From positions 1 to 36,773 of the forward strand of contig JARGOP010000035.1 of the NCBI GenBank assembly GCA_029233965.1: DNA of 36,773 bases, read 5' to 3'. The notes below the pieces were generated by a model that did no database searches, was not told the DNA's origin, and worked only from the letters and a program-made list of their open reading frames with translations. Shown piece after piece: positions 17,379-18,655 of the stretch. Positions within the stretch are counted from its first letter, which is position 1. Every line of letters starts with the position of its first letter. The position numbers and the translations under genes are program-made. The DNA is from Verrucomicrobiales bacterium (GTDB taxonomy: Bacteria > Verrucomicrobiota > Verrucomicrobiia > Verrucomicrobiales > DEV007).

Positions 17379-17444
17379 ATTGGAGTGAGGGCTTCAACCC
17401 TTTCGTCGCCCGGCTTTCGCAAAGGCCTGAAGGCCTCATTCCAA
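17379..17444 (+). repeat. long imperfect inverted repeat after the DUF1501 gene
   Basis: The segment from ATTGGAGTGAGG (17379-17390) pairs with CCTCATTCCAA (17434-17444), and the inner parts GCTTCAACCCTTT and AAAGGCCTGAAGG pair in part. The result is an imperfect stem of about 26 positions with a loop near TCGCCCGGCTTTCG. It starts five bases after the stop. No T tract follows. It may be an intergenic repeat (REP-like) or a 3' end stabilising hairpin. Confidence 0.5.
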
Positions 17445-17484
17445 CAGGCTCAACAGGCGGAAAAATTTGTGCTATGATTCTCCC

Positions 17485-17832
17485 ATGAATTTTCCGACTC
17501 TCATCTGTGTCCTTGGTCTCCTCATTTTCACCGGTTGCAGCGAGGCACCTCCGGAAGAAGCTTTTGTCCCGCCGCCGGTCGGAATTCTTGATACCGGAGA
17601 TTTTCTGGTGACGCTCCACAGCACACCCGAGAGTCCAGTCTACAGTCTCGAAGACAAGGAAGGGAATCTTCTCGCGCGGAACCTGCGGCGTGATGAATTT
17701 GCGAGGCAGTTTCCTGAAATCTACAAAGAAATCAGCTCTCTCTGGGCCGGGAACAACCGCGGTACGCTCGAAGCCGATCCGATGACCCGGCCGATTTTCG
17801 AGGACCTCCTCCTGTCCAAGCCGAACCCGTAG
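17485..17832 (+). CDS. small lipoprotein of unknown function
   Basis: The 115-residue product begins MNFPTLICVLGLLIFTGC, a lipoprotein signal with Cys18 in the lipobox. The mature part is acidic and proline-rich at first (SEAPPEEAFVPPP), then forms a short domain with LVTLHSTPESPVYSLEDKEG and a helical end. I recognise no family. I chose ATG 17485 because it gives an exact lipoprotein signal; a TTG six codons upstream is in frame but unlikely. It is 110 bp after DUF1501 on the same strand and may belong to the sigma-factor operon. Its TAG stop lies inside the outer arm of the repeat that follows. Confidence 0.7.
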   Translation: MNFPTLICVLGLLIFTGCSEAPPEEAFVPPPVGILDTGDFLVTLHSTPESPVYSLEDKEGNLLARNLRRDEFARQFPEIYKEISSLWAGNNRGTLEADPMTRPIFEDLLLSKPNP

Positions 17833-17901
17833 CGGAAGGTGCCAACCTTCCGTGCATCGTACCGGGGCACCTCCGTCGGAACCGTGGCCGGTTCCGCTAC
17901 G
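17828..17901. repeat. 74-bp cruciform (REP/BIME-like) element between convergent genes
   Basis: Outer arms CGTAGCGGAA (17828-17837) and TTCCGCTACG (17892-17901) are perfect 10-bp inverted repeats. Inside, CGGAAGGT/ACCTTCCG (17833-17840 and 17845-17852) and CGGAACCG/CGGTTCCG (17877-17884 and 17889-17896) each form an 8-bp hairpin with a 4-base loop. A further AGGTGCC/GGCACCT pair is possible. Both flanking genes end with the TAG in CGTAG, one on each strand. It resembles extragenic palindromic repeats, but no REP-associated transposase gene is in the window. Confidence 0.75.
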
Positions 17902-18655
17902 TTCGATCCGGAACCGTCGCGACATACACGGTGCTCGCCGAGGTTTTGTCCTGGAGCGGATTGTAAAACTCGACGATGTGAGATTCGCAATTCTCAAAGA
18001 CCTGCTCCAGTGCCGTCGTGAAGTTCTCCTCCGGCGGATCGTCCGACCACATCGCGAAGACTCCGCCCGGCAGAATCCGAGACGCAAATTTTGCCAATCC
18101 CTCTGCCGAATAAAACGAGCCGTGTTGCTCATGGAGCAACTTGTCCGGCGAGTGATCGATGTCGAGGAGAACGGCGTGGAACTGCTTCTCCGGTTCCTCG
18201 GGATGAAAGCTCCTCCCCTCGTCGCTCCCGAGGGCGAGCCGGAAGAAGTCTCCATGGACGAAGCGGCATCGATCGTCAGTGGTGAGTTCCGGACCCAGAG
18301 GCACTAACCCCTGCTCGTGCCATTCGATGACCGGCTTCAAATAATCGACCACGAGAAGCGATCCGAGATTTCCATTTTCCAGCGCAGCTTTCGCAGTGTA
18401 GCCGAGACCGAGTCCACCGACAACCACGTCCATCGCCGGTTCATCGGGAAACTGTTCGCGCGCTTTCGCGAGTCCTAGATTCGAAAGCGCGATCTCCACC
18501 GCCGTGAAGAGACTCGACATGAGATACTCATCGCCGAGGATGATCTCGTGAATCTCCTGATTGTTGAGCGAAAGAATCGTGCGGCGACGCAGGATCAATT
18601 CGCCCAGTGGGGTCGGTCGGTAGTCGAGTTCCTCGAACTGCGGTTTCGGGTGCAT
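17897..18655 (-). CDS. spermidine-synthase-like protein
   Basis: The 252-residue protein has a Rossmann-type methyltransferase/aminopropyltransferase fold. Visible marks are RRTILSLNNQEIHEIILGD and YLMSS near the N-terminus, a VVVGGLGLGYTAKAAL glycine-rich cofactor loop, VVDYLKPVIEWH after it, FHAVLLDIDHSPDKLL with the acidic pair in the place of the catalytic region, and GGVFAMWSDDPP near the end. These match bacterial spermidine synthase-like proteins whose substrate is mostly unknown. True SpeE has a conserved catalytic Asp/Tyr pattern that I cannot confirm here. It is convergent with the lipoprotein gene, and its TAG stop falls in the palindromic repeat. Confidence 0.8.
   Translation of the reverse strand: MHPKPQFEELDYRPTPLGELILRRRTILSLNNQEIHEIILGDEYLMSSLFTAVEIALSNLGLAKAREQFPDEPAMDVVVGGLGLGYTAKAALENGNLGSLLVVDYLKPVIEWHEQGLVPLGPELTTDDRCRFVHGDFFRLALGSDEGRSFHPEEPEKQFHAVLLDIDHSPDKLLHEQHGSFYSAEGLAKFASRILPGGVFAMWSDDPPEENFTTALEQVFENCESHIVEFYNPLQDKTSASTVYVATVPDRT

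Follow-up and report, generated by a model that had tools for sequence, protein, structure and literature searches.

The window, by which we mean the whole stretch of 36,773 nucleotides from a Verrucomicrobiales bacterium analysed here, contains two convergent genes that end at either side of a short palindromic element. On the plus strand, a small lipoprotein-like open reading frame (ORF) at 17485–17832 encodes 115 aa from its ATG and has the C-terminus FEDLLLSKPNP. On the minus strand, an ORF at 17897–18655 encodes 252 aa, ends in VYVATVPDRT and was labelled by eye as SAM-dependent-transferase/spermidine-synthase-like. The names that the initial annotation gave to the two convergent ORFs are to be taken loosely: "lipoprotein" was given by eye from an N-terminal hydrophobic stretch and a Cys box, and the "spermidine-synthase-like" ORF matched nothing in Pfam or NCBIfam at E 0.01, with weak matches to an O-methyltransferase in the PDB (E 0.17–0.18). 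The synthase-like gene was matched in 28 of the 58 genomes of the family, our own genome included, and a lipoprotein-like homologue adjoined it at two of the 27 other loci, in the relatives G057 (71%) and G043 (61%).

Between and into the ends of these genes lies a 74-bp element at 17828–17901. The initial annotation had described it as having 10-bp outer arms, two internal 8-bp hairpins and a CGTAG at each end whose TAG is the stop codon of the adjoining gene; coordinates, arms and stops were all confirmed. The element consists of two inverted 25-bp GTAG-tagged REP units, 24 bp apart, each formed by CGTAG, a perfect 8-bp stem and the loop GCCA. Unit 1 (17828–17852, plus strand) carries its foot to the left of hairpin 1 (17833–17840, loop 17841–17844, 17845–17852). 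After the spacer, read directly at 17853–17876, unit 2 follows in inverted orientation (17877–17901, minus strand) with the stem variant CGGAACCG and hairpin 2 (17877–17884, loop 17885–17888, 17889–17896). Both units match the unit pattern exactly. The outer arms, CGTAGCGGAA and TTCCGCTACG, are complementary at 10 of 10 positions, and the two arms are the only exact matches of CGTAGCGGAA in the window. According to both the ORF list and our census of such sites, the TAG of unit 1 (17830–17832, plus strand) is the stop of the ORF at 17467–17832, and that of unit 2 (17897–17899, minus strand) is the stop of the ORF running from 18655 to 17897.

We then considered the folding and the borders of the element. 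With up to 3 mismatches allowed, the left unit matched once in the window and never in 100 shuffles, and the single-strand DNA fold of 17815–17915 was better than that of 195 of 200 shuffles (z −2.5). Hairpin 1 was not formed in this minimum-energy fold, and the fold was therefore rejected as proof of both hairpins. With RNA parameters and the bare 74 bases, the structure of either strand was closed by the outer arms (−37.4 and −37.9 kcal/mol), and on the minus strand a longer internal stem replaced that strand's second hairpin. No direct target-site duplication abutting the element was seen by eye at its junctions (flanks ..CCGAACC and TTCGATCC..), and a MITE with terminal inverted repeats and such a duplication was rejected on this ground. 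The missing duplication is expected for the REP class, yet it offers no positive sign of transposition.

The unit is abundant in its own genome (4.83 Mb, 151 contigs). When the 74 bp were used as the query, 44 matches were found (E up to 10), among which the site itself was the sole match of full length at high identity, the other longer ones reaching 73–75%. The unit pattern GTAGCGGAANNNGCCANNNTTCCG had 43 exact matches, and it was found 55 times at up to 1 mismatch and 79 times at up to 3, compared with 0 and 9 for the reversed pattern used as a control. Of the 43 exact units, 18 are found within 200 bp of the end of a contig (11 contigs in all). Contigs thus tend to break off at the repeat, so that the number of copies given here is a minimum. 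The 25-mer of unit 1 has five further copies in this genome, and a 24-base unit identical to unit 2 occurs on contigs C23 and C18. Among the 13 distinct exact units, 98.1% of cells were paired; the stem covariation score was 0.412 against 0.098 for shuffled units (0 of 500 reached it), and every slid version scored lower, on evidence from three variable stem pairs, the loop and the other five pairs being fixed by the search pattern. Inverted pairs or arrays were found not only in the window but also at C8:111886–112167 and C120:58–359. A further dimer (C113:120988–121062) is embedded in the reading frame of a DNA-methylase-like ORF of 911 aa, and this ORF in turn has its stop at the TAG of a related hairpin (GTAGCGAAACTC-TCAC-GAGTTTCGCTAC).

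The family extends well beyond this genome. Of the 33 genomes of the genus, 17 (our own included) carried units at up to 1 mismatch, with 1 to 80 units per genome. The element belongs, as a BIME-like dimer, to a GTAG-tagged REP family spread through this Verrucomicrobiales genus: both units have the GTAG foot, the palindrome is short with conserved pairing, and the units are multicopy, mainly extragenic and dispersed, occurring also in inverted pairs or arrays. The expectation that such a REP-like element would have many copies was thus borne out, as the repeat is far from unique in its genome and recurs in about half of the genomes of the genus. A scan of named genomes with the exact pattern found at least 112 stretches. 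Among the 80 matches listed, most were from Verrucomicrobiota (Verrucomicrobiales, Akkermansiaceae, Akkermansia) and Planctomycetota (Gemmataceae, Fimbriiglobus and others), with one Kiritimatiellia MAG and single MAGs labelled Armatimonadetes, Holosporales and Clostridia. A consensus common to Verrucomicrobiota and Planctomycetota MAGs (L363–L442) hints at an old or exchanged family.

In order to learn what the element did to the two genes, we compared the locus with relatives. The closest match of the synthase-like gene is in G057 (89% identity), which keeps the same convergent neighbour and has no REP unit at up to 1 mismatch in its genome. There, the two genes end at their own stops, both TAG and 5 bp apart; the minus-strand gene ends in VYVAVKA-TAG and the lipoprotein-like gene in FEDLLETKSFSPPLK. 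Both C-terminal tails hence differ in sequence and length from those in the window. G043 (synthase-like gene 73%) carries units elsewhere in its genome; the two stops of its gene pair overlap, and no unit was listed near them. At the 27 other loci the tail of the minus-strand gene past the aligned part ranges from 0 to 6 residues and differs in sequence between loci, so that the changed residues are not conserved ones. The initial annotation had raised the possibility that the element redefined both C-termini and had proposed a comparison with strains lacking it. This comparison favours the proposal: the element is absent from both relatives that share the gene pair, and the orthologues at the locus end at different residues, the tails differing by a few residues from those of G057. 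Presence and absence at the site are plain, and insertion rather than loss is what we infer from them. As G057 has the same genes with their own stops and other tails, the element most likely arrived between the genes and replaced both stops.

An alternative is that both TAGs are ancestral stops that the insertion targeted. The hairpins would then have been placed 3' of an existing (G)TAG, as IS200/IS605 elements are placed beside a target tetranucleotide, with no C-terminus changed. Both G057 genes do end in TAG, and the tails at the locus, differing from those of G057 in sequence and length, speak against it. We further examined orthologues at seven other loci. The gene names used for these and other REP sites (amidohydrolase, RNase R, GDP-fucose synthase, oxidoreductase, methyltransferase, HisD, DNA methylase) were given by eye. 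The amidohydrolase-like gene ends in FEE-TAG at its REP and in FEK-TGA in the closest REP-free orthologue, from G069 (97%). The RNase R-like gene ends in EEEG-TAG at the REP and in AGDSTGEG-TGA in the REP-free orthologues of G050 and G069 (94%), and the GDP-fucose-synthase-like gene in FLTK-TAG at the REP and in FLKQI-TAA in the REP-free orthologue of G057 (90%). The closest REP-free orthologue stops with TAA for the oxidoreductase (G071, 89%; others with TAG, TAA or TGA) and with TGA for the gene at L194 (G071, 66%), and the best homologue found for the methyltransferase-like gene at L094 reached just 52%. Length changed by 0 to 5 residues relative to the closest orthologue and by up to about 13 relative to more distant ones. 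These TGA and TAA stops in the closest REP-free orthologues argue against ancestral TAGs, as does the occurrence of GTAG in units where no called gene ends. The HisD-like gene supports the other side, for its G034 orthologue (96.5%) has the same end residue and TAG without any unit; at this locus the TAG may be older than the element, or a loss of the element may explain the difference. In G050 the HisD-like gene ends on a TAG followed by an apparent decayed unit, and in G069 (L345) it ends at a unit with GTAA for GTAG, where the stop survives as it should if the host still needs the stop but no longer the tag. For the locus in the window, we regard ancestral TAGs as quite unlikely and insertion with exchange of both stops as the better account.

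To assess how often the units supply stops, we took a census of 142 REP sites in five genomes (our own, G027, G043, G050 and G019), with genes called by our own codon-usage script rather than a standard gene finder. Sites less than 60 bases from the end of an examined stretch were dropped. Contig ends, where many site groups of our own genome are located, reduced its count to 19 of roughly 30; in G019 about 7 of some 41 site groups were left out; the sites of G027 are its listed matches; and the census sets aside G062 and other unit-bearing genomes. Within this sample, 61 sites lay between convergent genes, 57 between tandem and 11 between divergent genes, and 13 were undecided (61 vs 11, p 1.5e-9). 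Gene ends faced a site in 186 cases, and in 94 of these they met a unit with GTAG outward. The stop fell exactly at the TAG of the unit at 9 of the 94 outward-facing ends: 5 of 15 in our own genome, 2 of 15 in G027, 1 of 21 in both G043 and G050, and 0 of 22 in G019. Another stop was used in the remaining 85. No gene ended 1–4 bases short of the TAG, and 28 gene ends, the nine included, lay within 15 nt of the GTAG.

Genes seldom extended into the repeat, as 3 of the 186 facing ends ran into or through a unit beyond its GTAG. Run-through from the GTAG side occurred in the DNA-methylase-like ORF (L095), and a second case, L272, is likely a shadow ORF. Of the frames entering a unit from the GTAG side, 9 of 10 were the TAG frame (binomial p 0.0004 against 1/3), a count that omits the L272 gene end (+236), whose composition resembles that of a shadow ORF; with it the count becomes 9 of 11 (p 0.0014). 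The window site supplies two of the nine, and when it is counted once the values are 8 of 9, or 8 of 10 with L272 (p 0.001 and 0.003). Selection seems to filter insertions by frame, and the bias suggests how such insertions survive. A gene at L269 (G050:C44, near 2501–2511) runs into its REP from the opposite side, and its stop is a TAG within the loop region of a variant unit.

The initial annotation had also suggested that the element was selected to close both frames. As a selected bidirectional gene-end module, the dimer would have had its GTAGs and hairpins kept for closing the two frames and separating the converging transcripts. The convergent bias of 61 against 11 agrees with this, as do the strong RNA folds on both strands and the G069 HisD-like unit, in which the tag was lost and the stop kept. 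However, tolerance of insertions mainly outside genes and promoters would predict the same placement equally well. The window site is the sole one of the 61 convergent sites that closes both frames, orthologous gene pairs manage without the element, and a terminator scan found no terminator-like site in it. The GTAG is present whether or not a gene ends there, and the great majority of outward-facing ends (85 of 94) use another stop; in the REPs studied in the part of PMC8266576 used here, recognition by the transposase explains the tetranucleotide. This suggestion was hence not upheld, and we consider a selected gene-end module very improbable.

Hairpins between convergent genes are commonly terminators, but the 43 exact units genome-wide, the absence of any intrinsic terminator (G+C-rich hairpin with a T-run) called within 17828–17901 and the lack of an Rfam match at E 1 in 17400–18400 led us to reject the terminator and Rfam readings and to give next to no probability to an intrinsic terminator acting in both directions or to a common local inverted repeat with no tie to mobile elements.

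The initial annotation had proposed looking for a RAYT transposase elsewhere in the genome. PF01797 matched 10 times in our own genome, and all nine genomes scanned were positive, with 103 matches in total; none of the 34 loci scanned around PF01797 matches held GTAG units at up to 3 mismatches. A RAYT was indeed present on contig C99 (NF047646, 80.8 bits against a cut-off of 80), but its neighbours are GGAG-footed repeats, another family than the GTAG units. RAYT-like genes near GGAG-footed inverted repeats were seen at C99:43664–43900 (L033) and also at L179, L183 and L185, and this GGAG REP/RAYT pair is a second type that coexists with the GTAG family. We also scanned the REP loci, among them 80 of the at least 112 exact-pattern stretches, with three small profiles of our own. 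GTAG units proved to adjoin a divergent RAYT-like gene in two cases, in G019 (L296/L475) and in a Gemmataceae MAG (L392). Both scored low on NF047646 (42 and 40 bits against the cut-off of 80). The units flanking them are exact at L392 and have a CCCA loop at L475. In G071 a third divergent RAYT-like gene (L476:1495–2184) is bracketed by close variants of the GTAG unit with one extra loop base, and its own stop is the TAG of the REP.

A profile from the alignment of L296/L475 and L392 found this linked RAYT type in 16 of the 33 genomes of the genus (12 strong and 4 weak matches). Three of 18 loci of the linked type that were scanned had a GTAG-footed hairpin nearby, one of them (L479) imperfect. 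No match of this type was found at E 1e-6 in our own assembly (G000), which is fragmented at repeats, nor in G057. Across the genus the linked RAYT does not track the units, being present in 10 of 17 genomes with REPs and in 6 of 16 without (33 genomes, Fisher p 0.30), in a count that used one loop sequence, so that variants were missed, and in which 4 of the 16 RAYT genomes were weak matches. Tracking of REP presence by RAYT presence was accordingly not supported. The genome does encode a RAYT, as sought, and the GTAG-linked type had no match in it at E 1e-6; the lack of a cognate GTAG RAYT in this assembly lowers the claim of a complete REPtron there only.

Taken together, these findings make it highly probable, in our judgement, that a REP dimer inserted between the two convergent genes, that its outward GTAGs replaced both stops with nearly neutral effect, and that a RAYT-type transposase mobilised it. 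The dimer would have been placed into the few bases between the genes. By analogy with published REPs, the GTAG at the start of each unit would be the recognition/guide tetranucleotide of a RAYT-type HUH transposase. Since the dimer shows GTAG outward on both strands, a neighbouring frame in the right register would end at the TAG. The old stops would be replaced and the tails altered by a few residues in poorly conserved ends, which may be nearly neutral, and an insertion near a stop is probably harmless when the TAG falls in frame. Once transcribed, the hairpins may later act on mRNA 3' ends or keep the converging transcripts apart. The mobiliser was most likely a RAYT that is now gone, or one not captured in the fragmented assembly; it may have been of the G071/G019 type. 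As GTAG is the tetranucleotide that TnpAREP recognises or is guided by in published REPs, the TAG is presumably held by the transposase rather than by translation. This argument is not absolute, because GTAG mutants were still bound in the S. maltophilia REPtron, which among published ones resembles ours most.

A bolder version would have the RAYT guide tetranucleotide double as a stop by design, with portable bidirectional gene-end cassettes spread across Verrucomicrobia and Planctomycetota, the in-frame TAG making insertion at coding 3' ends harmless, the tag held by transposase recognition and translation together, and the G071 RAYT ending on its own REP. We think this version unlikely and keep to the near-neutral exchange of stops by a mobile repeat. 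E. coli work cited in the portion of PMC12306157 considered here indicates that ribosomes can stall, and translation can fall, when a REP lies within 15 nt of a stop; in the window, where the unit starts at the stop itself, such an effect may be possible.

In summary, the finding is largely explained by the known GTAG-tagged REPs and opens no new kind of system. As far as the text of Di Nocera et al. (2013; PMC3733652) used here goes, GTAG REPs often provide TAG stops to flanking ORFs, comprise 24 family consensus sequences and occur in Verrucomicrobia; further earlier reports of REP-supplied stops may exist. In the same source, these REPs share with our units the GTAG at one end, stems of mostly 6–9 bp, short loops, many of them fitting CMA, dimers in opposite orientation and intragenic copies. 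They likewise adjoin the 3' ends of convergent genes, with termini that often supply the TAG stop, and they reach Opitutus terrae (Verrucomicrobia) and Planctomycetes; the likeness of GTAGCGGAANNNGCCANNNTTCCG to them was judged from these described features, and the present genus is not named in that text. In the passages of PMC8266576 at hand, recognition and guidance of TnpAREP by GTAG are strict in E. coli and less so in S. maltophilia and Marinomonas, and GTAG mutants of the S. maltophilia REPtron Sm were still bound with much lower cleavage. Like REPtron Sm in those passages, our units have GTAG directly before a perfect 8-bp stem and a very short loop; stem and loop sequences differ, with a loop of 3 in Sm and of 4 here, and the TnpAREP of Sm was tested biochemically, whereas the present family was characterised from its sequence. 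As with the REP-flanked RAYT genes in the part of PMC2817692 used here, GTAG units bracket a RAYT-like gene in G071, G019 and the Gemmataceae MAG, and in G071 the REP even supplies the stop of the RAYT. Unlike those RAYTs, the linked ones that we scanned are divergent (40–42 bits on NF047646, cut-off 80), and their type was not found in our own assembly. The comparison of the window with G057 is a clean with/without case of a REP dimer exchanging the stops of two genes at once, and it warns annotators that C-terminal differences among close relatives can be repeat-derived. To the known GTAG-tagged REPs, our analysis adds an empty site at the locus, a count of the frames that enter units and a divergent RAYT linked to them.
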